Notes: a model not told the origin generated them from the sequence alone. A DNA stretch of 64,000 nucleotides from Pedosphaera sp. (GCA_009695195.1 SIBJ01000005.1:1-64000); one strand, 5' to 3'. Counted from the first letter of the stretch, positions 40,842-59,626 are shown. Numbers and translations: made by a program.

Positions 40842-43800
40842 CTACGGCACGACGGCGCGATAGAACTTCCGGTCCGCGGGTGGCGACGCCCCGTCCTCGA
40901 AATACATCAGCGGGTTGGTGCTGCGGAAGTTCGTCAGCGGGTTCCAGTTCAATAGATTCGAGGAACTCTCAACGCGGTAATCGAATCCCGGCACCCCTTC
41001 GAGTGTGAGGCTGACGCGATTGGAGAGGACCGGCGTCGGAGCGACGAATCCCAACCGCGGCCCCGGCACAACGGACACGGGCGCGACGCGATAGAAACGG
41101 CGGCCGAAATTCGTGCTCGCGGGATCAATGAGAATCGTGAGCACATCGGTGCAGGTGAATTTGAGAATGGGCGTCCAGTCCACGAGGTTTGTGGTGGCGA
41201 GCAGGGCGTAGCTGTTGCCCGGTTGGCCGATGACTTCGAACTGGAACGAGCCATCCGGGAGCGTGCGGGCGTTGAGGAGACGCAGGTTGTCGAACTGGTG
41301 CGGATTCAACCCGGCGCGCGCCTCCTGAAAATTATTCAAGCCATCGTGATCGGGATCGTCGTTCGGTCCGCTATCGGGTGCGTTGAGCGAGCCGAAGTAT
41401 TGAAGCTCCCACGAATCCGCGAGGCCATCCTGATCGCGATCATCGGCGAGCGTGGTGCGGATCAGGAAAATCTGTCCGCCCGTGGTGCGGAAGGCGAGGC
41501 CGTCCGCGCCCCAGCGAATCAAACTGGTCGGCGTCCCAGCCACGTTTGAGATGGAGAGCGAACCGACGAACTGGAGGTTGGTGAAGTTCAGGCTCGTGAG
41601 CGTGTAGGTCGTCCCGCTGCCGGTCAGGTAAAACACGCGGCCACTGTTCACGTCCGGCGCGACGAGTCCGCTGTAGGGCACGGTGCCGATGAACGTGTGC
41701 GTTTCCGGATCGAACACCCGCCCTCCCGAAGTGAAGACGCGCGCTCCGTTGCAACGCATGTCGCGATCGAAACCGCTGATCATTCCACCGACGCCCTCCA
41801 GCACCGTGGCGCCGTTGGTGGTGATCTGGATGCGGAGAAATTCATCCACCGGCGCGCAATACAGGAGGTCGGGCGACACCGAGGAGAACTCGACGTAGCG
41901 ATCCCAAAGGGAGGCACCCGGGTCAACCGTGTTGGGCAATTGCACGCCGTCGCGATAGACCAGCACTTGCGGCCAGGAGGCGTCCGTCGCGACCACTACT
42001 GCGGGATCGTCCGGCTTCACGGCGAGGTCAGTGGCGGGATGCGGCGGAGTGAATTTCAAATCGGCCACGCGATTCGCCAGGTCAACGCGCGTGATGGCGG
42101 ATTCGCCATCAAGGCCCGCATAAACGTAACGCCCCGCAGGATGAACTGCGAGGTGGTTCGGGCCGCGACCAATGGGCACGGGCGAAGCGAAGCGACCCGT
42201 CGTCGGATCAAGCAGGAGCAGCGAGCTGCCGGCGTTCAGCGGGATGTTGTGGGCCGAGATCACGATGCGCCCCGCGTTCGAATTCCACGCCAGGTCGAGT
42301 GAAGGCTGGTGCAACTCCACGACGCGATCCGGCGGAAACACGTAGCCCACCTGGAAATTCACCGTGAGCAGGTTGTTGCTGCGGTTCAGGTCGGCATTGT
42401 CCCCGGTGAGGCTCACCCGCGCGCTGCTCGCGCCGGGCAGGCCGCCGAGCAAAGTCAGGTCAACTACCGCAGTCCCGCCGACGGGCAGATTCGTCACCAC
42501 GCAAACCACGCTGCTCACCGACTGGCTCTGGACGACGCCCTTGGCGCAGGTGACGGCCGCCAGCGTTACGTTTTCCGGCAGCAGCACCGCGAGCACGGCG
42601 TTGGTGGCGAAAGCCGGCCCGGCGTTGGAAACGGTCAGCGTGCAATGGACCGCGTTGCTCGTCAGCAGAAACTGGTTGGTGAGGGAAGCGCTGACCGCGA
42701 GATCGGTCACCGGCGCGGAGGGCAACAGCGTGGAACGCAGCACGATGACTTTGCTGTTTGAGCAAAACGCGAGGCCGTTCGTGCCCCAACGAATCAGCGC
42801 GCTGACGCTGAATGGCCCCGGCAGATTCACCGAGCCGACGGGCAACATGGTCGCGAGATCGTAAGCCGTCAGCGGTCCGATGGTGAAGTAGCCCACTGTG
42901 CAGAATCGGCCCGCGGCCTTGTCGCCTTGCCCGCCCCACCAGCCATTCGCGCTCGCGAACATCACCGCGGTATCCGGATCGAAGGCCCCGCCCGATTGCG
43001 AGAAGAGGGTGCCGCCCGTGATCATGAAACTGTCGCCCCACCAGCCCATGATCGGCAGCGTGCCTTCGTCCACGAGCCCCGACGCATCCACGCGCGCGGT
43101 CCGGAACGAAACGCCATACACGTCGTTGTTGTAGCCGTAAAGCCGGTCGGGCGATTCGCCGAACTCAATCAGGTTCACGCCGAACAAGTTGCTCCGCGCC
43201 ACGCCGCCTTCGTAGAGCGTCACGCCGCGTCCGCGCGGGCTGCAACCGGGACACGCCCACGAGACGGCGACGACGTTCGGATTGCCCGGTTGCGCGGCGA
43301 TGTCCTCGACTGACAGGCCGCCGTTGGTCCAACTCAAATCCACCGCACGTGTCAGCGTGTCGAAGCGCCGCACAACGGTCCCGGAGTTGCCGACGATGTG
43401 GAGGTAGCGGCCATCGCCCGATGTGACGATGCGACCGGCGCCGGGGCCGGCGGAAACCGCCGGCTCAACGAAACTGCGGAGCGGATCAATGGGCACCAGC
43501 GTGCTGTTCGAGCCGACCAACGCCCAGAGCCGCTCCGAGATTGGGCTGAACGCGAGGTCGCCGCCCGCGACGTTCAACGCGAGCATCGCCGGAGGCGCAA
43601 CATTGATCGGGTTGCTTTGGCCGCTGAGGCCGTTTGTGCCGGTGGCCTGGAGCGTGACCAGCGGCTCGGCGGTGAACAGCGTCACGTTGCCAGACCATTG
43701 GCCACCGCTGAACGTAACGTTCGTCGGCTGCACGATCACGGCACCGGGCGCGAGGCCGGTCAGCGTCACCAGGCCGTTGAACGAAGTGATCGGGCCGTCG

Positions 43801-46800
43801 TTGAGGTCGCGCGCGTAAATCATCACACTGAACGGGACGGAACTCGTTTTGACTCCCGAGACGGCGGCGAAGCTCAAGTGGTGAACTTCGTTGTCCAGCA
43901 CGGTCACGTTCGTTGCGGCGCTTGTGAAGCCGGGCGCGCTGCCTACGAGCGTCACCAGTTTTACGCCGTCAAAGATTCCGTTGTCCAGCGCTGTTGCCGT
44001 GAACACGACGGATGTCTGGCCCGCCACGATGATCGCGGTCTCCGGCACAACCAGCGTGTTCGTCGCGGTCGAAGCCAGCGCCACGGTCAGGTTCGTGGTC
44101 AAAGTGCCGGAGATGCGCGCGGTGTAGGCGATCGCGCCGGAATCCTCGCTCACTTGCGCGGGGCCGGTGAGCCGAAGATCGGTGTTCTCGTTGTCCGTCA
44201 CCGTGATGGTTTTGCTGTCGTTGGTCCAGTTGACGACGCTGGCGGTGACGGTGGCGGACTGCGGGCCGTCAATTTTTTGATCGTCCACGATCGTGAGGTT
44301 GAACGTGGCCGAAAGTTGATTGGACGGAATGAGGACCGACGCGGGTACCTGGACCACGTTCGTGTCGCTGGAGGTCAGCGCGACCGTGACGGGTTTGTTC
44401 GGCGGCGCGCTGGCGGTCACGAGGCCCTGGCCGGCCAGCGTGCCGGCGTTTTCGACGGCGGTCGCCGGAAGCGCGAGCGTGAGGAAAGCGGGTTCGTTGT
44501 CTTGCACGGCAACGATATTCGTGGCGCTGACGAAATTGGTGGCCCGCGCGATGACGGGCACGAGTTGGGTCCCGTCGAGGAAAGTGTCGTCAATGATTGT
44601 CAGATTGAAACTGGCGTTGGTCTGGCCTGCGGAAATGATCACGCTTGCGGGCACGGTCAACTCCGACGGCACGCTCGACGTGAGCGTCACCGTGATTGCT
44701 TGCGGGAAGGGAACCGGAATTTGCACCTGCACGGCGACCGGCGCGCTGCCTTCGGTGACCGACGCGGGCGTGATCAATTTCAACTCCGCTTGCAGCAGGT
44801 CAAAGAAGCCGCTCGTGCCGACATGCTCGAGGCTGTCATCGGCGCTGAGAAATGTATTCGTGCCCGTGCCGGTGCCGCTGAGGGTCACAAGGTTCGATTT
44901 CACGCCGCTGACGAACGCGGTGAAGTTGCTCGGCGTGAGGCTGAAGTTGTTCGTCAGATTGTCGTGGAAGACGCGGATGTCGTCCCACCACGAGGTCGTG
45001 TTGTCCTGGTTGGCGAGCAGGACGGAGTCAATGCTCGGGACGCTGCTGTCGGGGAAAGCGATATTGGTCAGCACCAACGCGCCGTCCACGCGGCAGTCAA
45101 TTTTTTGAGTCGCCCAGTTCAGCGCGAGTTCGACCTGATACCAGCGGTTGCTTTGGTAAGGCACGCCGCGAAAGCCGAGCTGGCGATCCAGCAGCCCCAT
45201 CTGGCCGTTGTTGTTGAAGTAGAAAACCGCCGAGCGGTAGAAGGCGCTGGCGTAGGCGGTGAGACGTCCGGCGATCTGATTCGTCCGGCTGGCGCGAACG
45301 GAGAACGTGATCTTGTTCGGCTGGCTGTTGCTGATCGCGCGGCGCAGGCCGCCGCCAAGGTTCGCGGTGCTGCCGGTCAGGCGCAGTGATCTCACGCCGC
45401 CGGCGGCGGTTTCGTTCGTCACTGTCGCCGTGAAGCTGGCGTTGATGTTTGTCCAGCCAATCGAGTCGCCGTCCTCAAAATCGTCCTGTAGGCGTTCGAG
45501 GAATCCGCTTTCGGTGCGGGCCTTCACGGGAATGGTGCCGAGCGTGTTGGTGGCCGGGTTGCCGAGATAATCCACCGCGCGCAGAATGACGGGGAACGGC
45601 CAGTCCTTGTAGCGCGGCGACGGAATCGCGTCCCAGGCGAAATGATCCAGCCGCCCCGGCACGGCGTCATCGTTGACGATGGTGCCAACGGCCTGAGTGC
45701 GCGCGATGGTTGCGTTGACCGGCAGCGTGAGGTTCACGAAGAAAGTTTCGTCTGGCTCGCTCACCGTGTTGCCGCGCACCGGCACGGCATAGGTCGCGTT
45801 GGTCGTCCCCGTGGGAAAAGTCACCGTGGTCACGGTGTGGGTGTAGTCGTTGGTCGTCGCGGTGTTGGGAGCGGTGGTGCAGCGGACGGACACGTCCACG
45901 ATCGCGAGCTTTGACAGCGTGAGTTGGAAGACCGCGTTCGTCGTGCCGCTGTCGCCTTCGAGTAGGGCGGTGTCCGCAATCGTGATCGTGGGCGGCGGGT
46001 CGTCGTCCAGCACCGTGCCCGCGCCCGAGCCGTCGCTGATGATCGCGTTGACGACGTTGGTCAGCAGCACGGTGAACGAGCGGTTCGGTTCATCGAGAAT
46101 GTCCTCGATGGCGTAAACCACGATGACGGCGTTCGTCGTGCCGGGCGCGAACGTGACCGTGCCGTTCGTCGAAGCGAAGTCGAGGTTGTTCGTCGCTGTG
46201 CCGTCCACGGTGAAGTAATCCACGGTAATGGTCTGCCCGCTGGGGCCGGAGAGCGTGACCGCGAAGACGATGCCGGTGGCGGCTCCGTTGGTTTCAAAAG
46301 CGGAAGCATCGCTGATCGTCAGCAGCGGCGGAAACACCTGCGCCGACACGGACGCGGAGTTGTTGCTGGCGTTGACGTCAATGACGGTGTTCGTCAGCGT
46401 GAAAAAATTGGTGAACAGGCCGGGAAGATCCGCGCGCGCCTGCAAGGTCGCGGTGACATTTGACCCGACGGCCAACGAGCCAAGGGTCCATCGCAAGACG
46501 CCTCCTTCATTGGTGACCGTTCCCATCAGGTTGCTGGCCGAAAGGAAGGTCAAGTTAGGTGGCACGGCCCATTGCACCATGACATCGCTGGCGGCCGTTG
46601 GTCCGCGGTTGGTCACGGCCACAGTGAACGTGAGCCGGTCTCCCGTGCGCACGGTGGCGCCCCAATTCGTGGAGACGCTCAGGCCAAGGTCGGTGCTTGG
46701 CAGAACATCGAATGGATTACTGGCGCCCACGTGGGCGGCATTATCATTGGCCAGGAGGTTTATGTTCGTACCCGGTTGCAGCGCGGTTACGACTCCGGTC

Positions 46801-49457
46801 CACGTGCCGTTGACGAAGTTCGTGGCCAGGGTTGGCGTGATCACCGGATGACTGATCTGAACGTCATCCAGATAAACCCAATAGTATTCGCCCAACCAAT
46901 AGACGCGGGCGACGGTAAACCGAAGCGGGTAAATGCCGTTCGTGGGCGGCGTAAAAGACAGGGAGATTTTCGTTCGCGCATCACCGATGCACATATCCGG
47001 CAGCGCCGTCAAGGTGCTGTTCGTTCCGACCTCCAGATAAATGATGCCACCCCAACAGGTGCCACCCACGTCTTCAACGTGGATCAGGATATTGGCGCTG
47101 AAGGTGTAGGGGATTCCGCCCACCAGGAAAATGTCCTGGGCGATGCCGTTGGTGCCACCATTCGCCGACATGCGAAACGCCATCGAAGCCGGGCCCAAGC
47201 CCGAAACGTCCGCGAGTCGCTGGTCGAATGTCTTTTCAAACGGGGTGTAGTTGAAGGTCGTCCACGGCGCGAGTGTCGGCCCTTCAAAATCGAGGTTCGT
47301 GGCCGCATAGTTCGTGGTCTGAGCGGAAAGCCGCACCGGCCAGGGTACATTCGTCGCCACGCCGCCGAAATAATCCCGCGCGGTGACCGTCACGGGGAAC
47401 GGCACGGTTTGGACTTGCGGGCTGGAAATGAATGACCAATCAAAATGGTGCAACCGGCCGGGTACCGCGTCGTCATTTAGAATCGTGCCCAGTGCGCTGC
47501 CCACACCGATCGTCGCGTTCTGCGCATTGGAGAGATTGAGCGAAAACGTTTCGTCGCCTTCGGGAACCAAGTCGCCAAAGACCGGAAGTTCGACGGTCAG
47601 GGTGGTGGTGCCGGGACCGAACGCCAGCGTGCCGTTGGTCGGGATGTAATCCGAATTCGCGCTGGCGCTCACGTCGGCGGTGAAGTAATCCACCGTCACC
47701 GTGCTGGTCGTCGGAAGCGAGAGCGAAACCTGCAGGCTGATGTTCGACCGCGCCAGATCACTTTCGGTCAAGGCGGCCGGCAATACAGTGAGCACCGGCA
47801 TGGGATCATCATCCAGGATCGTGCCGGTGGCGACCGCGCGGGCAATCCACGCTTGAGTCGGAAGGCTCAGATTCAAAGTCAAAGTCTCATTGGGTTCGCG
47901 GATCAAATCGCCGAAAATCGGAACGCTCACGATCGCGCTGGTTTGTCCCGGCGAAAACGTCAGCGTGCCGTTCGTGTTGGCGAAGTCCAGGGTGGCCACG
48001 CCCCAATCCACCGTTCCCGCAGTGCCACCGGCGGTCGCGAATTTCACGGTGACCGGCAATGCCGAAGTCGTCGTCAGCCAGACAGTGAATTGCATCCAGT
48101 TCGTCCCCGAATCGCCTTCGAGGATGCTCGCGTCGCTGGCGCCGACACCGGGGACATTGATCGTTCCGTTTGGATCATAGACTTCAGCGGTGGTCAGCGA
48201 GAAAGGATCACTCTCCGACGTCATGCCTCCGGCCAGCAAGACGGTGCCGTCGGGCAGCAGGCACGCGGAGTGATGCTCCCGCGGACCGGTCAGATTGGCC
48301 GTCCGGGTGAACGTGTCGGTGATCGGGTCGTAGAGTTCAGCGCTGGAAAGCGGGCCGGTCACGGCACCCCAGGTTCCGTACCCGCCGGCGATCAGCACCT
48401 TGCCATTCTGGAGGAGCGTGGCGGTATGGTAGGCGCGCGGTTGAAGAAATCCACTGGTCTCGACCGACGTGGAAGTATTCGTGTCGTAGAGATAGGCCCG
48501 TCCGTAACCGAAGTAAAGAAACTTGCCGGTGGACAGGTAGATTCCGTTGAACGCGCATTGTTTCGTGGGAGCAAGGCTGAACGTCTCGGTGACCGGGTTG
48601 AACAACTCGTTCGTCGTCAAAGCGCCTCCGCACAAGAGCACCGTGCCGTCGGGTTGAAGCGTGGCGTAATGGTTGTAACTATAAACGAGCATGTCGCCGA
48701 CCTGGTGGAATAACTGAGTGGCAGGGTTGTAAAGCTCGGCGGTTTTTGTGCCGGTGGCAGTGGCGCCGCCCGCCAGAAGCACCAGCCCGTTGGTCAGCAC
48801 CGTTGCCGAACCGTACTCATGCACCCCCACCATCGTTCCGGCCGCGAGGCTGAAAGTACGCGTGGACAGGTTGTACAGGTCCGTGGTCTTGCCGAGATGC
48901 TGGCCGACCACGAGAACCTGATTGTTCGTCATCAGCGTCATCGTCGGCGTGGAGTAAAAAGCGATGTGGGTGCCGCCCACACCGAAACACCTGGCCTGGG
49001 TGACCAGCGTGATGAAACTTGCCTGGCTGTTAGTTGAGTTCGGATCCGGTGTCGCGGAAGCAGCGACCGCGACGTTCGTGTACGAGCCGGTGGCGATCGC
49101 CTTGAATTCCATCGTCAACGTCGCGGATTGATACGGCGGAAGATCGCCCAACGCGCAGGTCAGGAGGCCCGCGCTTTGGCTGCAGGTGCCGCGGGAACTG
49201 GTCGCCGAAACAAATTCAATACCTGCGGGCGGCCAGTTCGTGATCGTGGTGTTGGTCGCGGTTTCCCAGCCGCCGTTGTAAAGATTGATTGAGCATTTGA
49301 AATACTGCCCGGTGCTGGCCGCGAAAGCTGAGGTGTTGTTGAACGAGAGCGCCAGGTCCGCGTAACCGGGCTGCGCCACCGCCTTGCCAGAAGCGAACGC
49401 AGCGCCAGCCAGGAGGAGAGCACGAAAACTACAAATGCGCGGGAGTGAAGGTTTCAC
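40842..49457 (-). CDS. Giant secreted mosaic protein with DUF11, kelch-like, Calx-beta and propeller domains
   Basis: 2871 residues with a signal peptide (1-28). Domains in order: a DUF11/CARDB-like domain (about 31-152); a kelch/galactose-oxidase-type propeller (157-435, repeats of TVLLAGG and AELYDP); two Calx-beta domains ending in TILDDD and TILNDD (436-663); a carbohydrate-binding-like region (about 700-880); DUF11 (about 925-1045); two more Calx-beta; a second sugar-binding-like region; and three shorter Calx-beta-like repeats ending in DNE (about 1560-1860). Then come an YVTN-like propeller (1950-2245), DUF11 (2250-2375), a second propeller (2380-2665), and an Asp-rich calcium loop with DRDQDGLADSWELQY (2668-2715). 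Two 'GxPGxxYxL...TTNLVDW' modules end it. It is likely a calcium-stabilised surface or matrix protein. Confidence 0.88.
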   Translation of the reverse strand: MKPSLPRICSFRALLLAGAAFASGKAVAQPGYADLALSFNNTSAFAASTGQYFKCSINLYNGGWETATNTTITNWPPAGIEFVSATSSRGTCSQSAGLLTCALGDLPPYQSATLTMEFKAIATGSYTNVAVAASATPDPNSTNSQASFITLVTQARCFGVGGTHIAFYSTPTMTLMTNNQVLVVGQHLGKTTDLYNLSTRTFSLAAGTMVGVHEYGSATVLTNGLVLLAGGATATGTKTAELYNPATQLFHQVGDMLVYSYNHYATLQPDGTVLLCGGALTTNELFNPVTETFSLAPTKQCAFNGIYLSTGKFLYFGYGRAYLYDTNTSTSVETSGFLQPRAYHTATLLQNGKVLIAGGYGTWGAVTGPLSSAELYDPITDTFTRTANLTGPREHHSACLLPDGTVLLAGGMTSESDPFSLTTAEVYDPNGTINVPGVGASDASILEGDSGTNWMQFTVWLTTTSALPVTVKFATAGGTAGTVDWGVATLDFANTNGTLTFSPGQTSAIVSVPIFGDLIREPNETLTLNLSLPTQAWIARAVATGTILDDDPMPVLTVLPAALTESDLARSNISLQVSLSLPTTSTVTVDYFTADVSASANSDYIPTNGTLAFGPGTTTLTVELPVFGDLVPEGDETFSLNLSNAQNATIGVGSALGTILNDDAVPGRLHHFDWSFISSPQVQTVPFPVTVTARDYFGGVATNVPWPVRLSAQTTNYAATNLDFEGPTLAPWTTFNYTPFEKTFDQRLADVSGLGPASMAFRMSANGGTNGIAQDIFLVGGIPYTFSANILIHVEDVGGTCWGGIIYLEVGTNSTLTALPDMCIGDARTKISLSFTPPTNGIYPLRFTVARVYWLGEYYWVYLDDVQISHPVITPTLATNFVNGTWTGVVTALQPGTNINLLANDNAAHVGASNPFDVLPSTDLGLSVSTNWGATVRTGDRLTFTVAVTNRGPTAASDVMVQWAVPPNLTFLSASNLMGTVTNEGGVLRWTLGSLAVGSNVTATLQARADLPGLFTNFFTLTNTVIDVNASNNSASVSAQVFPPLLTISDASAFETNGAATGIVFAVTLSGPSGQTITVDYFTVDGTATNNLDFASTNGTVTFAPGTTNAVIVVYAIEDILDEPNRSFTVLLTNVVNAIISDGSGAGTVLDDDPPPTITIADTALLEGDSGTTNAVFQLTLSKLAIVDVSVRCTTAPNTATTNDYTHTVTTVTFPTGTTNATYAVPVRGNTVSEPDETFFVNLTLPVNATIARTQAVGTIVNDDAVPGRLDHFAWDAIPSPRYKDWPFPVILRAVDYLGNPATNTLGTIPVKARTESGFLERLQDDFEDGDSIGWTNINASFTATVTNETAAGGVRSLRLTGSTANLGGGLRRAISNSQPNKITFSVRASRTNQIAGRLTAYASAFYRSAVFYFNNNGQMGLLDRQLGFRGVPYQSNRWYQVELALNWATQKIDCRVDGALVLTNIAFPDSSVPSIDSVLLANQDNTTSWWDDIRVFHDNLTNNFSLTPSNFTAFVSGVKSNLVTLSGTGTGTNTFLSADDSLEHVGTSGFFDLLQAELKLITPASVTEGSAPVAVQVQIPVPFPQAITVTLTSSVPSELTVPASVIISAGQTNASFNLTIIDDTFLDGTQLVPVIARATNFVSATNIVAVQDNEPAFLTLALPATAVENAGTLAGQGLVTASAPPNKPVTVALTSSDTNVVQVPASVLIPSNQLSATFNLTIVDDQKIDGPQSATVTASVVNWTNDSKTITVTDNENTDLRLTGPAQVSEDSGAIAYTARISGTLTTNLTVALASTATNTLVVPETAIIVAGQTSVVFTATALDNGIFDGVKLVTLVGSAPGFTSAATNVTVLDNEVHHLSFAAVSGVKTSSVPFSVMIYARDLNDGPITSFNGLVTLTGLAPGAVIVQPTNVTFSGGQWSGNVTLFTAEPLVTLQATGTNGLSGQSNPINVAPPAMLALNVAGGDLAFSPISERLWALVGSNSTLVPIDPLRSFVEPAVSAGPGAGRIVTSGDGRYLHIVGNSGTVVRRFDTLTRAVDLSWTNGGLSVEDIAAQPGNPNVVAVSWACPGCSPRGRGVTLYEGGVARSNLFGVNLIEFGESPDRLYGYNNDVYGVSFRTARVDASGLVDEGTLPIMGWWGDSFMITGGTLFSQSGGAFDPDTAVMFASANGWWGGQGDKAAGRFCTVGYFTIGPLTAYDLATMLPVGSVNLPGPFSVSALIRWGTNGLAFCSNSKVIVLRSTLLPSAPVTDLAVSASLTNQFLLTSNAVHCTLTVSNAGPAFATNAVLAVLLPENVTLAAVTCAKGVVQSQSVSSVVCVVTNLPVGGTAVVDLTLLGGLPGASSARVSLTGDNADLNRSNNLLTVNFQVGYVFPPDRVVELHQPSLDLAWNSNAGRIVISAHNIPLNAGSSLLLLDPTTGRFASPVPIGRGPNHLAVHPAGRYVYAGLDGESAITRVDLANRVADLKFTPPHPATDLAVKPDDPAVVVATDASWPQVLVYRDGVQLPNTVDPGASLWDRYVEFSSVSPDLLYCAPVDEFLRIQITTNGATVLEGVGGMISGFDRDMRCNGARVFTSGGRVFDPETHTFIGTVPYSGLVAPDVNSGRVFYLTGSGTTYTLTSLNFTNLQFVGSLSISNVAGTPTSLIRWGADGLAFRTTGGQIFLIRTTLADDRDQDGLADSWELQYFGSLNAPDSGPNDDPDHDGLNNFQEARAGLNPHQFDNLRLLNARTLPDGSFQFEVIGQPGNSYALLATTNLVDWTPILKFTCTDVLTILIDPASTNFGRRFYRVAPVSVVPGPRLGFVAPTPVLSNRVSLTLEGVPGFDYRVESSSNLLNWNPLTNFRSTNPLMYFEDGASPPADRKFYRAVVP

Positions 49458-50707: not shown

Positions 50708-52636
50708 TTACTTCGCGGTCCGTTCGCCGCCGCCCGGCGGCGTGAACTTTTCGTCCGCGAGCGTTTTGAGGAACGCCACCAACGCGCGTTTGTCCACCGC
50801 GCTCAACGGCACGCCGCCGTCGGGATGTTTGGCGATGTTGGGGTCGAGCGTGGCGCTGCGCGTCACGCCGGTGCTGTAATGATCGACGACTTCTTCCAAG
50901 GTTGTAAAACGTCCGTCGTGCATGTAGGGCGCGGTGAGCGTGACGTTGCGCAGCGAGGGAGTGGAAAATTTTCCATTGTCGGAATCTTTGCCGGAGATTT
51001 TCGCGCGACCGGGGTCGGTGAACGTCGCATCCAATCCGTTGTTGGCGAAGGTCTGGCTCTGGAACAGCGGCCCGCCGTGGCAATGGAAACAATCCGCACC
51101 GAATTGCTCGCGGCGGGGGTCGAATTCCGTCATGAACAACTCGAAGCCGCGATTCTCCTCGTCACTCAGTTGCGTTTCGCCCCGTAGCGCACGGTCGAAC
51201 TTCGAATCGAAGGAGGTGAGCGTGAGGACGAACGACTCGATGGCGAAGCCGATTTTCTCCGGCGTGATTTCCGATGAGCCGAAGGCGGAGGTGAAGAGGG
51301 CGGTATAGTTGATTGCCGATTGCCGATTGCTGATTGTCGATTGGCCGGCGAGTTTCGCGCACACGTTCGTCAGTGTTTCATCCATCTCGGTATGGTCTTG
51401 AATCGGCATCAAGGCCTGGGCGCGAAGCGAGGGCGCGCGGCCATCCCAGAAAAAGGAATTCTTCCACGCGAGGTTGAACAACGGCATGGCCTGGCGGGTG
51501 CCGACCTGTTCGCGAACGCCGATGCTGTATCGCCGCGGGTCGGAGAAGGCATGTTTGGAATCGTGGCAGGACGAACAGGAGAGCGAGCCGTCTTTCGAGA
51601 GCGCGGTTTCGCGAAAAAGTTTTTCCCCGAGCGCAACGCGTTCTTCGATAAGCGGATTGTCGCGCGGCAAATCGGGAATCGGAAACGTGGCGCTCATCTG
51701 GAAGCGATACGGCGTGAACTTCTCCGGCAGGTAGAGCGGCTTCAGGTTTTCGGCGACGATTTCGGAGGCGGTGGCCGCGCTCACGCGGCGGACGTGAAAT
51801 GCACCGGGCAGATTTGCCACGAGCGCGGCGGCAATCGGATCGCCCTCGCGCGAGTGTGTAGATGACCCGGCTTTGGCGAATGAGAGCGGGCGCGGCGCGT
51901 TCAGTAGTGTGGCGAGGTCGAAGTCGAGTTCGAGTTTTGTGTCGTGTGTGAGGTCGAGCGGCACGGCGAGGTTGATGCGTGTGCGGTTCGTGTCGCGGGC
52001 GAGGTGGTAGGACCAGCCGTCGAGTGCGGCCCCGGAGCGCGGCACTCCGGGCCGCAGCACGTCCGCTTTGGCTGGCGCGTTAAAATGTTCCGAAGACGGC
52101 TCTGCATTCGTGAGTGCTGCGGCCGGGACGGCTGCGCTCCGCCACATGCCTTCGATCGCCAGAAAAATATAACCGCCCTGCCAGCTCCAGTGCAGGCCGT
52201 TCAGATTTGGATTCAGCGGATGGTCTGCGGGGAACTGCGCCACATCGGCGTGGTTCAGCTTTTCGTCGGGGCCGATGTGAAAGCGGAGGGCGCGGTATTC
52301 GCCGGATGGGACGGATGCGACTCGATGGGACGAATGGGATTTTTCCAGGTCGAACCACGCGAGTTGATTCGTGAGTTCGAGCCACGAGCCGTCGGCGCGT
52401 TGGAGGGCGAAGCCGCTCACGAGATAGCTGACGCGGGTGATGGAAAAAGTTTCCTTCGCGGAAGTTTCGTAGCGGAGCGAGTTCGGTTGGAGCGGCTCGC
52501 CGGAGAATTTCGGAGTGACGACGATTTGCAATGAAGCCCCAAGCACCAAGCCCCAAGCTCCAGTGAACATCCAAACTCCAAACACCAAGAACCGTGCGAC
52601 GATTGGTGGTTTGATGTTTGGAGCTTGGTGCTTCAC
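50708..52636 (-). CDS. MbnP-like domain fused to a diheme MauG/MbnH-type peroxidase
   Basis: A 642-residue exported fusion. Residues about 38-245 match MbnP: YLVSGFALQR, EKLNHADVAQFPADHPLNP, then LNGLHWSWQGGYIFLAIEG and WSYHLARD. Residues about 300-642 are a diheme cytochrome c peroxidase of the MauG/MbnH group: heme sites C354-SS-CH and C516-FH-CH, WKNSFFWDGRAPSLRAQALM and the APYMHDGRFTTLEEVVDHYS loop. MbnH enzymes convert a conserved MbnP tryptophan to kynurenine for copper binding. The hydrophobic signal (RFLVFGVWMFTGAWGLVLGA) is encoded by a heptamer repeat. Residues 166-207 and 431-443 are repeat insertions. The start is GTG at 52636, 33 nt after the YHYH gene. Confidence 0.85.
   Translation of the reverse strand: MKHQAPNIKPPIVARFLVFGVWMFTGAWGLVLGASLQIVVTPKFSGEPLQPNSLRYETSAKETFSITRVSYLVSGFALQRADGSWLELTNQLAWFDLEKSHSSHRVASVPSGEYRALRFHIGPDEKLNHADVAQFPADHPLNPNLNGLHWSWQGGYIFLAIEGMWRSAAVPAAALTNAEPSSEHFNAPAKADVLRPGVPRSGAALDGWSYHLARDTNRTRINLAVPLDLTHDTKLELDFDLATLLNAPRPLSFAKAGSSTHSREGDPIAAALVANLPGAFHVRRVSAATASEIVAENLKPLYLPEKFTPYRFQMSATFPIPDLPRDNPLIEERVALGEKLFRETALSKDGSLSCSSCHDSKHAFSDPRRYSIGVREQVGTRQAMPLFNLAWKNSFFWDGRAPSLRAQALMPIQDHTEMDETLTNVCAKLAGQSTISNRQSAINYTALFTSAFGSSEITPEKIGFAIESFVLTLTSFDSKFDRALRGETQLSDEENRGFELFMTEFDPRREQFGADCFHCHGGPLFQSQTFANNGLDATFTDPGRAKISGKDSDNGKFSTPSLRNVTLTAPYMHDGRFTTLEEVVDHYSTGVTRSATLDPNIAKHPDGGVPLSAVDKRALVAFLKTLADEKFTPPGGGERTAK
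51309..51344. repeat. Heptamer repeat inside the MbnP-MbnH gene (family A, GATTGCC subtype)
   Basis: Five tandem 7-mers (GATTGCC, GATTGCC, GATTGCT, GATTGTC, GATTGGC) lie in frame in the peroxidase half. They encode about 12 residues (QSTISNRQSAIN) between the two heme sites. Confidence 0.75.
52033..52141. repeat. Palindromic element (family E) inside the MbnP-like domain
   Basis: The left arm (52033-52060), beginning CGGAGCGCGGCACTCC, and the right arm (52114-52141), ending GGACGGCTGCGCTCCG, are imperfectly complementary over 28 nt. Both outer ends match well. It adds about 40 residues (166-207) between the GGYIFLAIEG and WSYHL parts of the MbnP domain without breaking the frame. Confidence 0.75.
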
Positions 52637-52672
52637 TGGTGCTTGGATGTTGGTGCTTGGTGCTTTTCCTAC
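52535..52672. repeat. Heptamer inverted-repeat element (family A, copy 5)
   Basis: The left arm (52537-52590) has CCAAGCA/CCAAGCC units with core CCAGTGAA (52560-52567). The right arm (52602-52668) has TTGGAGC/TTGGTGC units with complementary core TTCACTGG (52632-52639). The left arm encodes the signal peptide of the MbnP-MbnH protein. Confidence 0.9.
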
Positions 52673-54111
52673 GGATCATACGTCGCCAGTGCGGTGCGGG
52701 TCACGCGGAAGAATTGATTCGTGGCCAGCTTCGCCGTCGTACTCGTGCCTTTGTTCAGCACGGCGGGGATGCCGGTGGCGTTGGTGGTCCACGTTGAAAG
52801 ATTCCCGCTGGCTTCGACGCGGTACGTGCCGCCTTCGGTCGCGCTCCAGGTGAGCGTGACGATGTTGTTGCTCACAACGGGAGCGGACATCGCGAGGGAG
52901 GAGTTCGCGCCGCCGACAAAGTTGGTGGTGACGGCTTCGGAGAGCGTAGTGGTGTTGCCGGTGGGATTGCCGAAGAAGGTGCGCGAGACGTTGTAGGGAA
53001 ACGCGGGCGTGCCGTTGCTGCTGACGCTGACGAAATAAGCCCACGTGCCGCCGGGAAATTCCGGCGTCACGCACCAGCGGGTGTTCCATTCATTGAGATC
53101 GAAGTCCACGCCTTGCACAAAGTTTGAGCCGGTGACGGGATTGATCAGGTCGCCGAGGTAGGCGTTATCTTCGAGATAGCGACCGAGCGGATACGTGGTG
53201 GAAACCGTCGGGCCGGTCGCCGCGCTCTCGCTGGCGCGCGTGGCCCAAGCGGGAATCGCGGTGCGGCCGGTGGTGGTGAGATTGTCTGCGCCATTGCTGC
53301 CGTTGCGGAGTGTGTAGCCGGAAATCATCCGGCGCACGCCGCTCGCGGGATTCGTCGCGGTCGAGTAGCCATACGGGCCGTAAACCGGAAAGCCGTCGCG
53401 CATCCAGCCGAGAATGGGTGAGTGCTTCGTCACGGCGTTGGTGCTTTCGCTGTAGGTTTTTGTCGCCGCGTTGTAATCCACGTGGTCGCCGAGTTCGTAG
53501 CGGAGCGCCGGCGGGTTGGCGTGATAATGATACGCGCCGCTGCCGGGTTGGTGCGCGTTGCCGGGATCGAAGGTGACGCCTTCGTTGACCCACGCGTCGC
53601 GATTCCAACTGCCGCTGCCCTGCACCTCCGCCGAGCCGTTCCAATAAAAGGCGTCGCGCGAATCGAACATCGCGACGCCGTCCACGAAGTAGCCGATGGC
53701 GCCGAGGCCGGTGAGCGTGTGCGTGCCGTTGGTGGCGGGCGCGCGCGGGATGCGATAAAGCGTCTTGGTGTTGATCGGCACGTTGGGAAAAAGCGTTGTG
53801 TGCCCGGCGTTGAGATACCACGGCCCCATGGTGTGCGAGCCGAGGCCGCTGGTGCGGAGGTAAACCCAGCTCGCCGAATAATAAACTTCATGCACGCCGC
53901 AATAGGCTGGCGTGCTTTGGCTGAGCGTGCCGCGGCTCCAGGTGGTGACGGCGTTGCCGGAAGATTTGTCGGCGTCAGTGGCGTAGAGACGGGCGTATTG
54001 GCCGGAGGCGGTGGTGAACCAGGAATCCAGTTGTGGATCGGCGGCGCGGGCGGTGGCGACGAAAAGAATTGTGGTGAGAACGATGGCGGGTTGAATTGAA
54101 TTCATTTTCAT
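52669..54111 (-). CDS. YHYH-domain secreted protein 1
   Basis: A 480-residue exported protein (signal VLTTILFVATARA). The central part carries the family motif at residues 194-197 in GAYHYHANPPALR, then GDHVDYNAATKTYSES and HSPILGWMRDGFPVYGPYGY. YHYH-family proteins are of unknown function; the clustered His suggests metal binding. The C-terminal 90 residues form a small module with GGTYRVEASGNLSTWTTNA, as in other surface proteins here. The start is ATG 54111 (54105 also possible). A shared operator-like sequence lies 15 nt upstream. The MbnP-MbnH gene follows after 33 nt. Confidence 0.85.
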   Translation of the reverse strand: MKMNSIQPAIVLTTILFVATARAADPQLDSWFTTASGQYARLYATDADKSSGNAVTTWSRGTLSQSTPAYCGVHEVYYSASWVYLRTSGLGSHTMGPWYLNAGHTTLFPNVPINTKTLYRIPRAPATNGTHTLTGLGAIGYFVDGVAMFDSRDAFYWNGSAEVQGSGSWNRDAWVNEGVTFDPGNAHQPGSGAYHYHANPPALRYELGDHVDYNAATKTYSESTNAVTKHSPILGWMRDGFPVYGPYGYSTATNPASGVRRMISGYTLRNGSNGADNLTTTGRTAIPAWATRASESAATGPTVSTTYPLGRYLEDNAYLGDLINPVTGSNFVQGVDFDLNEWNTRWCVTPEFPGGTWAYFVSVSSNGTPAFPYNVSRTFFGNPTGNTTTLSEAVTTNFVGGANSSLAMSAPVVSNNIVTLTWSATEGGTYRVEASGNLSTWTTNATGIPAVLNKGTSTTAKLATNQFFRVTRTALATYDP

Positions 54112-54151
54112 GGCGCAACTCTACGCGAAGCTACCTTAAGGGAAGGTGAAG
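54112..54151 (-). promoter_or_regulatory. OmpR-type direct repeat plus -10, YHYH gene 1
   Basis: On the minus strand: CTTCA (54151-54147), 6 nt, CTTAA (54140-54136), then CTTCG (54130-54126). TAGAGT follows 12 nt after CTTAA and 6 nt before the ATG. The CTTAA-to-start distance is 24 nt. The 11-bp phase resembles the PmrA-type box. The spacing suggests a leaderless transcript. Confidence 0.65.
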
Positions 54152-54156
54152 GGAAA

Positions 54157-54270
54157 AGCTCCAAGCTCCAGAGAAACTTCAAGCTCCAAGCTTCAACCGG
54201 CGCGTGGACTTTGTTTGGTGTTTGGATGTTGGTGCTTCTCTGGAGCTTGGTGCTTGGATGTTGGAGCTTC
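54157..54270. repeat. Heptamer inverted-repeat element (family A, copy 6)
   Basis: The left arm (54157-54198) has core CCAGAGAA (54168-54175). The right arm (54213-54269) has TTGGTGT/TTGGATG units and core TTCTCTGG (54236-54243). It lies between the two YHYH genes. Confidence 0.9.
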
Positions 54271-54349
54271 TGAAAAAGATTCCGCGGGCCGGGGCGACAC
54301 ACGATTTTGCCCCGACCCGCGGTTCGTCTGACGCGAGACAAATTTTAAT

Positions 54350-56110
54350 TCATGGATTGATCGTGAAGCCGCCCGTGAGCGTGAAGACCACGTTGTTCTG
54401 TGGAGCGGGCGGCGGCGGCGGCGGGAAGGTGACAATCATATCTTTCGCGCCCAAGCTGGTGCCGGCGGTGATGGCGAAGGTGGCAACGACTGTGCCTTGC
54501 ACCGCATACGAGACGCTGGTGCCAACGATGCCGCCGAGCGTGACGCTGGTGACCGAGACAGTGGTGGGAGGTGTCATCGGCGGGTTTGAACCGCCGGTCG
54601 GCAGTGTGATGCTGACGGTGATGTTGGTGCCGGAGCCGCGACTCACACTGCCGCCCGGCGCCACGAAACTCGCGCCGCCGCCGCCGGTGTAGCCGTCGTA
54701 GTTGGCGATGCCGGTGCGAGCAACGCGGTAGAAACGCATTGAGTTCGTGCCGCCGTTGGTTTCCGTGGCCGTGCCCGTAACCGTGCCGCTGACGGTGTTC
54801 GTGTTGAACGCGACCCAGTTCGAGCCGGACAAGTTGCTTTCCGCCTCGACGCGATACGTGCCGCCTTCGACCGCGCTCCACGTCAGCACGATGTTGTTGC
54901 CGGAGCGGGCCGGCGGGTTCATGGATTCGCGCAGGTCCGCGCCGCCGAGGAAATTGGTGGTCACCGTTTCGCCGATGGTTGCGGTCGCGCCGGTCGGGTT
55001 GCCGTAGAACGCGCGGCCAATGTTGTTCGGGAAAACCGGCGTGCCGTTGCTGCTCATGCTCACGAAGTAAGCGTAAGTCCCCTGCGGAAATTCCGGCGTC
55101 ACGCACCAGCGACCGTTGTATTCGTCGAGGTCGAAGTCCACGCCCTGCGTTTTGCCGAGGTCGCCGAGATACGCGTAATCCTCCATGTAGCGGCTGATCG
55201 GGTAAGTGGCGATGACGGTCGGGCCGGTTTGCGTCGTGCCGTAGAACCGCAACGCCCACGCGGGCAGGCTCGCGCGCAAGGTGTTCGTGAGATTGTCCGT
55301 GCCGTTCGAGCCGTTGCGTAAAACGAAACCCGAAATCATCCGCCGCAAACCGCTCGCCGAATTTGACGCGCTTGAATAACTATACGGGCCGTACATCGGA
55401 TAACCATCGCGCACCCAGCCGAGAATCGGCGAATGTTTCGTCACGGCGTTCGTGCTCTCGCTGTAAGTTTTCGTCGTCGCGTCGAAGTCCACGTGATCGC
55501 CCGTCAGATAGCGGAGCGCGATGGGATTCGCGTGGTAGTGATGCGTGCCGGTTTGCTCCTGATGCGCGTAACCGGGGTCGAACGTCGCGCCTTCGTTCAC
55601 GTAGGCTTCACGGTTCCAATAACCCGTGCCGTTGCCGCTCTCGGCGGAACCCGTCCACACAAAGCCGTCGCGCGAATCAAACATCGCCACGCCGTCCACG
55701 AAATATCCGATGGCACCGAGGCCCGTGAGATTCGTTGCGGTATGCACGACCGGTATGCGCGGGATGCGGTAGAGAACGTTTTGGTTCTTCGGCAGATTCG
55801 GGAAGCTGCCGTTCTGCCACGGCCCCATGATGTGCTGGCCGAGGCCGGAAGTTTTGAGATACACCCAGTTCGACGACGAATAAACCGCCTGCACGCCGGC
55901 GTAGGCGGGCGAGCTCTGCGTCTGCGTGCCGTTGCTCCACGTGGCGGCGGCGTTGCCGGCGGTCTTGGCCGCGTCGTTGGTGTAGATGCGCGCGTACTTG
56001 CTGGCGTAAGTCGTGAGCCATGAGTCTGCGTAGGGGTCGGCGGCGGGTGCGTTGGCGGTGAAAAGAAATCCGGCGAAGACGGCGGCGAGGCGGACTGAAT
56101 TTGTTTTCAT
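54350..56110 (-). CDS. YHYH-domain secreted protein 2
   Basis: A 586-residue paralog of YHYH protein 1 (signal peptide to about residue 23). The family motif is HHYH here (residues 190-193, in GTHHYHANPIALRY). The flanks are conserved: GDHVDFDATTKTYSES, HSPILGWVRDGYPMYGPYSY, and LGDLGKTQGVDFDLDEYNGR then WCVTPEFPQGTYAYF. An extra C-terminal domain (about 490-586) is Gly-rich and then IPT/TIG-like, with ITVSITLPTGG and VTLGGIVGTSVSYAVQG. The start is ATG 56110, with the same operator geometry as gene 1. Probably a recent tandem duplication. Confidence 0.85.
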   Translation of the reverse strand: MKTNSVRLAAVFAGFLFTANAPAADPYADSWLTTYASKYARIYTNDAAKTAGNAAATWSNGTQTQSSPAYAGVQAVYSSSNWVYLKTSGLGQHIMGPWQNGSFPNLPKNQNVLYRIPRIPVVHTATNLTGLGAIGYFVDGVAMFDSRDGFVWTGSAESGNGTGYWNREAYVNEGATFDPGYAHQEQTGTHHYHANPIALRYLTGDHVDFDATTKTYSESTNAVTKHSPILGWVRDGYPMYGPYSYSSASNSASGLRRMISGFVLRNGSNGTDNLTNTLRASLPAWALRFYGTTQTGPTVIATYPISRYMEDYAYLGDLGKTQGVDFDLDEYNGRWCVTPEFPQGTYAYFVSMSSNGTPVFPNNIGRAFYGNPTGATATIGETVTTNFLGGADLRESMNPPARSGNNIVLTWSAVEGGTYRVEAESNLSGSNWVAFNTNTVSGTVTGTATETNGGTNSMRFYRVARTGIANYDGYTGGGGASFVAPGGSVSRGSGTNITVSITLPTGGSNPPMTPPTTVSVTSVTLGGIVGTSVSYAVQGTVVATFAITAGTSLGAKDMIVTFPPPPPPAPQNNVVFTLTGGFTINP

Positions 56111-56227: not shown

Positions 56228-57227
56228 TCACGGCGTTTTGTAGGCCCGATAAAATCTGCGCTGGAAACCGGAAGCGGCGGTGTCGGTGAAAACGTAAGGA
56301 TCGGTCGGCGCGGAATTGGTCAGCCGCGGCGTCCAGCTTGTCAGGTTCGTGCTGGCTTCGATCACGATGGGAGTTGCCGCGCCGGAAATCGTCATTTGAA
56401 ACTGGCCGTTCGGCAGTACCGTCGGCGCGCTCAGACGAAAGGGCTGGCGCAACGGGACGACATCAGCCCAGGTGGTGCCGAGCCGGACCTCATCCGCCGA
56501 CATTAGCTGACCGCTGCTGGCAAACATCGCGACGGTGGTGTTGTTGAAAATCATATTGAATCCACTGCGCGTGCCGATGGCGGGCGACCCGGCTTCGCTG
56601 GCGAGATTGGCCGGGTTGCGCCAGACGACGACGGAGTCGCTGTTGGTCTGGTCGCTGAGATTGAATTTGAGGACGAAGAAATTCACCGCTTCGTCGGGCG
56701 CGCCCAAATCCATCAGCCACGTGCTGGTTTCCAAAAGGCGCAGACCGAGGTGCGCGTTTCCGAAGATCGCCGAGTTCAACCCACCTCGACCGAGCTGGCC
56801 GTCCCCTGGCCCAGGCGGAGGGCGCGATAGACCGAGGGTCGGTGCTTTGCAGCCGCAGCATGAAACTGACATACACGGTGCCCGTGGCGGCGTGCGTGAA
56901 GGGCGCCGCGAACGAATGAAAGAGCCAGCCATCGGCACCGGCCTGCGCGGCGCCGCCGCTGCTGACCACCGAGTCCGCGCCGCTGGAATAAGTGAGCCCG
57001 TTCGTCGCCGCAGTGACCGAACCGACGAAGGAGTACCACGCGCCAAAAAACCCCGTGACCGTCGGATTCTGCCCCGCCAGCGCGCCCGGAGTGTATTCGC
57101 CCGCCGCGCTGTTCGCGCCGCTGAGAAACGGGTCGTGGGCGATTACCACCGCGTTCGCCGGGAGCGCTGCGAACCAGAACGCCGGAAAGGAAACGAGCGC
57201 CAACAGCCGGGGCAAAGCAGATTTCAT
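56228..57227 (-). pseudogene. Secreted protein broken by two apparent frameshifts
   Basis: The 5' part (from ATG 57227) has a signal peptide (ALPANA) and reads well to RLQSTDP. The next stretch reads sensibly only in a second frame (SVYRALRLGQGTASSVEVGG, about 56850-56795). The remainder reads in a third frame (LNSAIFGNAHLGLRLLETST to QRRFYRAYKTP). Two one-base shifts about 60 nt apart explain this. The reconstructed protein of about 330 residues has a beta-rich body and a C-terminal 'IEASTNLTSWTPRL' module like other secreted proteins here. Either a dying gene or indel errors. Confidence 0.65.
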
Positions 57228-57438: not shown

Positions 57439-58089
57439 ATGAGAATCTTGATCGTCGAGGATGAACCGGACCTGTTGCACGGCCTCGCCCGCGCGTTCCG
57501 CGACGAGGGCTACGCCGTGGACATCGCCGACAACGGCGAGGATGGCCTCTTCAACGCCGAATCCACCGACTACGACGCCATCCTGCTCGACGTGATGATG
57601 CCCAAGCTCAACGGCTGGGAAGTGTTGGCGCGTCTGCGGAAGAAGAAAAAAACTCCCGTGCTCATGCTCACCGCGCGCGACCAATCGCGCGACCGCGTGA
57701 AAGGTCTCGACACCGGCGCGGACGATTACGTGGTGAAGCCCTTTGATCTGCCGGAAGTGCTGGCGCGATTGCGGGCACTCATCCGCCGGAGCGCCGGCCA
57801 GACCACAAATGTGATCAACCTCGGCGACGTGACGATGGATACGGCGGCGCGCATCGTTTCGTTAAAGCACAAACCGGTGGAACTCACCGCGCGCGAGTAT
57901 GCGCTGGTGGAATTCATGGCGTTGCATCGCGGCGAAGTCGTCACGCGCACGCAACTTTACGAACACTTGTTCGACGAAAACGATGCCACGCTTTCGAACC
58001 TGCTCGATGTTCACGTCTCGAACGTCCGCAAAAAACTCGGCGCGGAATTCATCACGACCCGGCGCGGACATGGGTATTGCATTGAATGA
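57439..58089 (+). CDS. OmpR-family response regulator
   Basis: A DNA-binding response regulator, 216 residues. The receiver domain (1-118) has acidic residues E8 and D9, the phospho-acceptor D51 in LLDVMMPKLNG, Thr in LTARD and Lys in VVKPFDLPE. The winged-helix domain (about 125-216) has LTAREYALVEFMALHRGEVV and NLLDVHVSNVRKKL. Homology starts at ATG 57439; the frame is open to a GTG at 57361 that sits at the conserved operator distance. The partner kinase gene follows after a hairpin repeat. Likely autoregulated, and likely regulator of the YHYH/MbnP-MbnH operon. Confidence 0.94.
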   Translation: MRILIVEDEPDLLHGLARAFRDEGYAVDIADNGEDGLFNAESTDYDAILLDVMMPKLNGWEVLARLRKKKKTPVLMLTARDQSRDRVKGLDTGADDYVVKPFDLPEVLARLRALIRRSAGQTTNVINLGDVTMDTAARIVSLKHKPVELTAREYALVEFMALHRGEVVTRTQLYEHLFDENDATLSNLLDVHVSNVRKKLGAEFITTRRGHGYCIE

Positions 58090-58196
58090 ACAGCAAAACA
58101 TCCAACAACCAACATCCAACATCGAACATCCATTGGCTGCGGCGCCGGGTCATTGGGTGTTGGATGTTGGATGTTGGATGTTGGATGTTCCCATCC
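58090..58196. repeat. Heptamer inverted-repeat element (family A, copy 8) between regulator and kinase
   Basis: The left arm (58097-58133) has ATCCAAC/ATCGAAC heptamers. The right arm (58153-58190) has TTGGGTG followed by four TTGGATG units. The loop is GC-rich. It fills the whole gap between the two-component genes. Confidence 0.9.
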
Positions 58197-58198
58197 CG

Positions 58199-59626
58199 AT
58201 GATCCTCCACTCCATCAAATGGCGGTTGCAAGCGTGGCACGGCTTCCTGCTCGTGGCGCTGGTGGCCGGTTTGATGTCCGGGTTCTACACTTTTGAGCGG
58301 CGTTCGCGGATGCAGGCGATGGACACCGCGCTGCACGAGGCCATGACGCCATTGTTGCCGAAACTCGCCCCAATGGGCGGCCGTGGCGAAGGCGAACGTC
58401 GCCGCCCGCCGCCCGAGGACGGCGATCCAGGATTCCCCAACGCGAGGCCCGAGGACCGCCCGCCAGAAAATCGCCTGCGCGAGGTGCGGCCGTTCGACAC
58501 GGGAAAATTTTACTACGCCGCCTGGTACGAAACCGGCGAACGCTTCGCCCTCTCGACGAACGCGCCCGGCGAAATTCCGCGACCTGAATTCAAGAGCGAG
58601 CAGGATAATCTCGTCCTGCGCACGCGTGACGGGAATCGTGAACTCGCCCACCACGTCCCGAACGGCCGCATCGTCCTCCTCGGCACCTCGCTCGCGCAGG
58701 CGACGGCGGAGTTGCGCAAACTCGCGGCCACGCTCGCCGGGATTGGTTGCGTCATTGTCGTTGTCGGGTTGGGCGTGGGGTGGTGGACGGTCAGTCGCGC
58801 ACTACGGCCCATCGCGGAGATCAGCCGCGCGGCGCAGGAGATCGCCGCCGGTGACCTGGCTAGACGCATCAACCCCTCGGAAACGGAAAGCGAACTCGGC
58901 CAGCTTGCCACCGTGCTGAACTCCACCTTCGCGCGCCTCGAAGCGGCGTTCGCGCAGCAGCAACAATTCACCTCGGACGCCGCCCACGAACTTCGCACGC
59001 CGGTCTCGGTCATCCTCACGCAGGTGCAGAGCACGTTGAACAAGGAGCGCACCGGCGCGGAATACCGCGAGACGCTTGAAGCCTGCCAGCGCGCGGCGCA
59101 GCGGATGCGGCGCCTGATCGAATCGCTGCTGGAACTTGCGCGCTTCGACGCGGGCCAGGAAAAGTTGAAACGGATTCCGTTCGACCTCGCTACGACCGCG
59201 CGCGATTGCGCGGAGATGATTCAACCCCTCGCGCAGGAGCGGCGCGTGAAAATCGTCACCGAACTCTCACCGACAAATTGCGCCGGCGACCCCGAACGCA
59301 TCGGCCAGGTCATCACGAATCTGCTGACCAACGCCGTGAACTACAACCAACCCGACGGCGAAGTGCGCGTAACGGCTGCGGCGCAAAACGGCAGCGCCAT
59401 CGTGACTGTGACCGACACCGGCCCGGGGATTGCGCCGGAAGATTTGTCGCGGGTGTTCGAGCGGTTCTACCGCGCGGACCCGGCGCGCTCGAATTCCCTC
59501 GGCAGCGCAGGCCTCGGACTTTCAATCTGCAAAGCCATCGTCGAGGCGCACGGCGGGACGATTGAAGTCGCGAGCGGACCCGGCCGCGGGGCGAAGTTCA
59601 CTTTGCGCCTGCCAGCTCCGGCTTGA
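58199..59626 (+). CDS. Sensor histidine kinase
   Basis: A 475-residue membrane sensor kinase. TM1 is about 14-31. A periplasmic domain of about 145 residues contains a Pro/Arg/Glu-rich stretch ([20 protein letters not shown]). TM2 is about 178-197, followed by HAMP (about 200-252). The H-box is [12 protein letters not shown] with H263, and the catalytic ATPase domain has [30 protein letters not shown] and [18 protein letters not shown] start at ATG 58199; upstream sequence in this frame is repeat. Signal sensed is unknown; copper or oxidative stress is suggested by the neighbouring operon. Its 3' end overlaps the DAHP synthase gene by 29 nt, convergent. Confidence 0.93.

Follow-up and report, generated by a model that had tools for sequence, protein, structure and literature searches.

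A fused MbnP-MbnH protein and its YHYH neighbours in Pedosphaera sp.: a candidate copper-handling system of Verrucomicrobiota

A fused protein preceded by two YHYH proteins

In a 64,000-nucleotide stretch of Pedosphaera sp. DNA (SIBJ01000005.1, here called the window), a gene on the minus strand encodes an MbnP-like domain and a diheme MbnH/MauG-like domain in one chain, and the two genes read before it encode YHYH proteins. An earlier note on this DNA had placed both domains in a single 642-residue chain and two YHYH genes immediately upstream on the same strand, and both statements were borne out: the open reading frame (ORF) carries PF20243 and PF03150, and both upstream genes match PF14240. 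The order of reading is YHYH protein 1, YHYH protein 2 and the fusion, with a gap of 238 nucleotides between the YHYH genes.

50708..52636, minus strand: MbnP-MbnH fusion, 642 residues, GTG start; PF20243 and PF03150 profile matches
51869..52534, minus strand: MbnP domain, residues 35-256, with invariant H149-W150-x-W152, H211 and H261; PF20243, 110 bits at this place
50744..51646, minus strand: MbnH/MauG-like diheme domain, residues 331-631, with CxxCH at 354 and 516 and Tyr587; PF03150, TIGR04039
52669..54111, minus strand: YHYH protein 2, 480 residues, 32 nucleotides before the fusion start; PF14240, 126 bits
54350..56110, minus strand: YHYH protein 1, 586 residues; PF14240, 127 bits
52534..52665, no strand assigned: copy of a dispersed palindromic repeat, encoding the fusion's predicted signal peptide; 80 matches genome-wide, both strands counted

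In a Pfam profile search, residues 35-256 of the fusion match PF20243 (MbnP) with 107 bits (E 1e-30) against a cut-off of 27 bits, which answers the concern that the N-terminal domain might prove not to be MbnP-like by profile. Residues 331-488 match PF03150 (CCP_MauG) with 174 bits (E 4e-51). Residue conservation was counted over 60 fusions, and H149, W150, W152, H211 and H261 are invariant in all 60, as are both CxxCH heme motifs and W391, W397 and Y587. W150 and W152 sit in an HWSWQGGY block and form the WxW motif. Y587 aligns with the Tyr of MbnH (6e1c) and with that of MauG, at the position of MauG Y294, the distal heme ligand; the MauG Y294H structure (3orv) is among the structures listed in the fold search.

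The AlphaFold2 model of the fusion has a predicted local distance difference test score (pLDDT) of 86 and a predicted template modelling score (pTM) of 0.84. MbnH 6e1c is its first-ranked fold match in the PDB (TM-score 0.79 by target, 34% identity) and also the closest solved relative of the fusion by sequence; many ordinary peroxidases match the model by fold too. MbnP 7l6g is matched weakly by profile (E 0.29), in an alignment that covers the WxW block and one His. By Pfam match, residues and fold, the chain is MbnP-like and MbnH-like. The residues of MauG-type chemistry (two CxxCH motifs and Tyr587) are present as judged from the sequence, and W150, W152, H211 and H261 could possibly supply a copper site of kynurenine and His.

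An N-terminal export signal is predicted for the fusion, and no second hydrophobic signal sequence was found in the linker (about residues 285-310). The predicted signal peptide is encoded within the dispersed palindromic repeat of about 135 nucleotides, whose inverted arms lie at 52534-52588 and 52611-52665, and the repeat seems to have been co-opted as an export signal. Window positions 54156-54270 were noted together with this repeat. In the family-level relatives L020 and L021, the N-terminus resembles that of the window protein.

The two YHYH proteins are 63% identical, so the pair looks like a tandem duplication. Both match the PF14240 profile and carry the family's invariant His triad. 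They had been called His-rich, which is wrong: YHYH protein 1 has 8 His in 586 residues and YHYH protein 2 has 9 in 480. H183, H191, H193 and H226 are nevertheless invariant in 41/41 aligned YHYH relatives, and W165, W232 and W285 are invariant among the conserved Trp and Tyr. The AlphaFold2 model of YHYH protein 1 (pLDDT 82) gave no convincing PDB fold match, only immunoglobulin-like domains with a TM-score of about 0.12 by query, which we take to be chance or to reflect C-terminal beta domains. No sequence relative of the YHYH proteins was found in the PDB.

Spread in Verrucomicrobiota and association with YHYH

The MbnP-MbnH fusion is the normal form in Verrucomicrobiota and no peculiarity of the window genome. 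A search of 57 relatives found MbnP matches in 13 genomes besides the window's own, mostly in long open frames, and the MbnP ORFs read out from those genomes have both domains unless truncated by a contig end. A scan of genome contigs found 244 relatives, 80 of which were kept; their titles name Verrucomicrobia or its subgroups, apart from one that says only "bacterium". Among these 80, the fused frame occurs in 75 distinct loci, all of Verrucomicrobiota. In a further sample of 241 genomes drawn across the phylum, every intact MbnP is fused, in a frame of 584-814 residues, and the exceptions are broken genes, one in a split frame (G164) and one interrupted (G177). The earlier statement that known MbnP and MbnH are separate proteins holds for the characterised pair, but within Verrucomicrobiota fusion is the rule.

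The genome search for the fused domain pair that the earlier note had proposed recovered about 75 distinct homologues. An assembly or frameshift artefact as the origin of the fusion is ruled out by these homologues, which share the same fused frame. A viral origin was also considered and rejected: no relatives of the MbnP domain were found in viral contigs with a single-sequence query, which detects only close relatives. Carriers with strain names include Chthoniobacter flavus Ellin428 (L087, with a YHYH gene 12 nucleotides upstream) and Rubritalea marina DSM 17716 (L106).

Association with YHYH was counted over 51 distinct loci whose flanks reach at least 3 kb upstream and at least 2 kb downstream. 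A YHYH gene lies within 5 kb of the fusion in 36 of them, adjacent and on the same strand in 32, and often 0-110 nucleotides upstream. This is far above background, and the suspicion that YHYH genes rarely accompany the fusion can be set aside. Among genes no more than two positions from the fusion, 20% are YHYH genes; at a distance of four or more positions the share is 0.8% (Fisher 1e-19). In the 241-genome sample, YHYH is present in 14/14 genomes with MbnP versus 13/227 without it (Fisher 1e-15), and in 10 of these 14 MbnP and YHYH are no more than about 5 kb apart; sampled genomes are related and the counts not phylogenetically independent, so these p-values are too small, though the effect is still large. 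A chance neighbourhood is ruled out by the near/far gene counts and the genome-level counts.

Two YHYH genes, as in the window, occur in a minority of loci. A short YHYH type (about 300-370 residues, more than 200 bits) stands alone elsewhere in such genomes, the window genome included (L030), so it is the long type, mostly about 430-670 residues with C-terminal beta domains, that goes with the fusion; the window proteins belong to this long subfamily. In L030 (8362-11795), a further two-component-like gene pair sits beside the lone short YHYH gene, on the other strand. YHYH occurs on plasmids in just two weak matches, neither adjoining MbnP. On a Deinococcus sp. KNUC1210 plasmid (L111, 6779-8855), a YHYH gene lies 4 nucleotides before a HupE/UreJ_2 gene.

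Beside the fusion in several loci, one ORF encodes both the YHYH domain and a sulfatase or sulfatase-like domain (L027, L053, L089, L086, L100, L105). Sulfatase genes as such make up 4.4% of genes near the fusion and 1.6% far from it (p 0.02), a weak enrichment apart from the YHYH-sulfatase fusions.

Copper context and interpretation

A two-component system had been reported next door, and it is present, divergent from the fusion and YHYH genes (about 57439-59626).

57439..58089, plus strand: OmpR-type response regulator, probable start (open frame from 57361); PF00072, PF00486, TIGR01387
58199..59626, plus strand: heavy-metal sensor histidine kinase (CopS/CusS type); TIGR01386

The kinase passes TIGR01386 (heavy-metal sensor kinase) with 297.2 bits against a cut-off of 292.55, and the response regulator comes nearest to TIGR01387, a family of heavy-metal regulators (212 bits, below the cut-off of 279). 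Six other distinct fusion loci also have strong relatives of the two-component system or its kinase, encoded on the opposite strand no more than 8-9 kb away. The regulator and kinase genes of the window are separated by a simple inverted repeat of the TTGGATG type (58097-58190).

In four loci, the fusion is immediately preceded on its own strand by efflux genes of the CusA/CusB type: CusB in L057, CusB and CusA in L065 and L078, and CusA in L095. A multicopper oxidase gene is also upstream in L057, L065 and L078, and in L057 and L065 the oxidase and the YHYH domain form one chain. On a Deinococcus radiodurans plasmid (L112), unfused MbnP and MbnH-like genes are followed by CopC and CopD. The Cus loci, the recurrent two-component system and the D. 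radiodurans cluster are singly no proof, but together they point to copper over any other metal and support the copper or heavy-metal link suggested earlier.

The gene dprA lies downstream of the fusion. A broken gene, about 1 kb long, separates the YHYH pair from the two-component system; there, at 56228-57227 on the minus strand, two overlapping frames (56490-57227 and 56228-57046), neither with a Pfam match, look like a single exported protein interrupted by a frameshift, either a sequencing error or a broken gene. The 2871-residue protein encoded at 40842-49457 on the minus strand contains DUF11, Calx-beta and Kelch repeats and is probably located at the cell surface. In loci L101, L107, L108 and L093, the fusion is followed on its own strand by a gene for a glucose/sorbosone-dehydrogenase-like protein (about 850 residues).

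At a rough probability of 55%, we favor the view that the fusion is an exported, self-maturing periplasmic Cu(I)-binding protein made with YHYH proteins. The fusion, its N-terminal export signal, the catalytic and ligand-type residues and the gene neighbourhood can be read from the sequence. By analogy with MbnP-MbnH, MopE and CorA, we infer kynurenine-forming oxidation of Trp in cis. The C-terminal diheme domain would take up oxidising equivalents (peroxide or O2) and oxidise W150 or W152 of its own N-terminal domain to kynurenine, which with the invariant H211 and H261, and perhaps H149, would make up a Cu(I) site. Enzyme and substrate in one chain would secure maturation at a fixed ratio. 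The fusion, presumably co-transcribed with one or two exported YHYH proteins and acting jointly with them, would be part of a copper-handling system in the periplasm or at the cell surface, with the divergent heavy-metal two-component system as its probable regulator. A copper site of two His and kynurenine has precedents in MopE and CorA (PMC3423442, PMC3912023).

Several observations weigh against this reading. The fusion scores 39.3 bits against the MbnP equivalog TIGR04052, below its cut-off of 140, and 218.9 bits against TIGR04039 (MbnH), below 362.85. The four-Cys motif in the molecule name of 7l6g is not seen, with 0 Cys in residues 1-300 of the fusion and a mean of 0.42 in each homologue. 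Missing both NCBI cut-offs and the four-Cys motif makes the fusion a variant of the MbnP/MbnH kind. H149 is not conserved in 7l6g. No YHYH gene lies within 5 kb in 15 of the 51 loci, CusAB adjoins only a minority of fusions, and the relatedness of the sampled genomes, given above with the counts, belongs here as well.

Two other readings give YHYH a different role. The fusion could be a copper protein while YHYH is a zinc-dependent hydrolase that shares just its regulation or its secretion niche, that of sulfatases and other surface enzymes. Such a hydrolase has been predicted for YHYH in the literature, with a zinc site of three His and one Asp (PMC7824862), and the invariant H183, H191 and H193, the YHYH-sulfatase fusions (L027, L053, L089) and the 13/227 genomes with YHYH and no MbnP all agree with it. 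We consider it unlikely, as it leaves unexplained why YHYH occurs in all sampled MbnP genomes and why YHYH-multicopper-oxidase fusions, which suit a role in copper handling, stand beside CusA/CusB. Still less probable is that the diheme domain acts in trans on the adjacent YHYH protein or YHYH-fused enzyme, with the MbnP domain as a docking or metal-delivery module. YHYH is the dominant neighbour, often just upstream, its W165, W232 and W285 are invariant beside the His triad, and several loci have it fused to a sulfatase or a multicopper oxidase. However, a conserved fold alone would also give invariant aromatic residues, the WxW in cis is invariant in 60/60 fusions as expected of a substrate, and the D. 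radiodurans MbnP-MbnH pair exists with no YHYH beside it.

It seems very improbable that the fusion works as a cytochrome c peroxidase to scavenge peroxide, its N-terminal domain being decorative. PF03150 takes in ordinary peroxidases, many of which match by fold, but the fusion has Tyr, as in MauG, at the distal-ligand position, its top fold match is MbnH and not a peroxidase, and the WxW and His pattern of the MbnP domain never varies. Returning to the self-maturing copper protein, a more specific version is only tentative: YHYH proteins would be copper partners or further substrates of the cis-acting fusion, in a methanobactin-independent, kynurenine-based system across Verrucomicrobiota, with variants that use a YHYH-multicopper oxidase and a CusBA pump.

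Known systems and meaning

Among the closest known systems is the MbnP-MbnH "metallo-mystery pair" (TIGR04052/TIGR04039; 7l6g, 6e1c), which has in common with the fusion both domains, the WxW and diheme motifs, the MauG-type Tyr and export. The pair is encoded by two neighbouring genes, whereas the fusion is a single chain, here and in about 75 homologues, lacks the four-Cys motif, falls under both curated cut-offs, has YHYH neighbours and has no methanobactin genes. Methanobactin biosynthetic genes had earlier been stated to be absent nearby, and no MbnB homologue (PF05114, TIGR04159) was found anywhere in the assembly (91% complete), although both profiles match in control genomes; this supports the claim that the system is independent of methanobactin. 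PmoA had no match anywhere searched, which leaves methanotrophy unsupported, not excluded.

MopE/SACCP and CorA/CorB of methanotrophs are copper proteins with a Trp-derived kynurenine and a diheme peroxidase-like gene (PMC3423442, PMC3912023), features that the fusion would share if its kynurenine forms as proposed; they differ in being encoded by separate genes. The MopE motif is Kyn130-x-His132, and MopE and CorA have been described as lacking marked similarity to MbnP (PMC3621798). MauG (3l4m) is, like the C-terminal domain, of the diheme protein-oxidising type with a distal Tyr, but its substrate is a separate protein and its product a different cofactor, and it is about 28% identical to the fusion in the structural match. 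The D. radiodurans plasmid cluster (MbnP-CCP-CopC-CopD) has adjacent MbnP and MbnH genes and a conserved WxW; it differs in being unfused and in having no YHYH in the stretch. Our literature search, incomplete in coverage, so that an earlier notice of the fusion is possible, found no paper on YHYH in an MbnP-MbnH context and only one that discusses MbnP/MbnH in substance.

If MbnP chemistry takes place here, the fusion shows that it is not bound to methanobactin. If our reading is true, the fusion would offer a single-chain model for how a protein makes its own kynurenine copper site, in which the way MbnH recognises its substrate could be examined with no complex to assemble, and the strain-named carriers, C. 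flavus Ellin428 and R. marina DSM 17716, make the claim open to experiment now. It would also give a functional context to cellular YHYH proteins, which have none. Together, the fusion and its usual YHYH neighbours suggest a widespread copper-handling system across Verrucomicrobiota.

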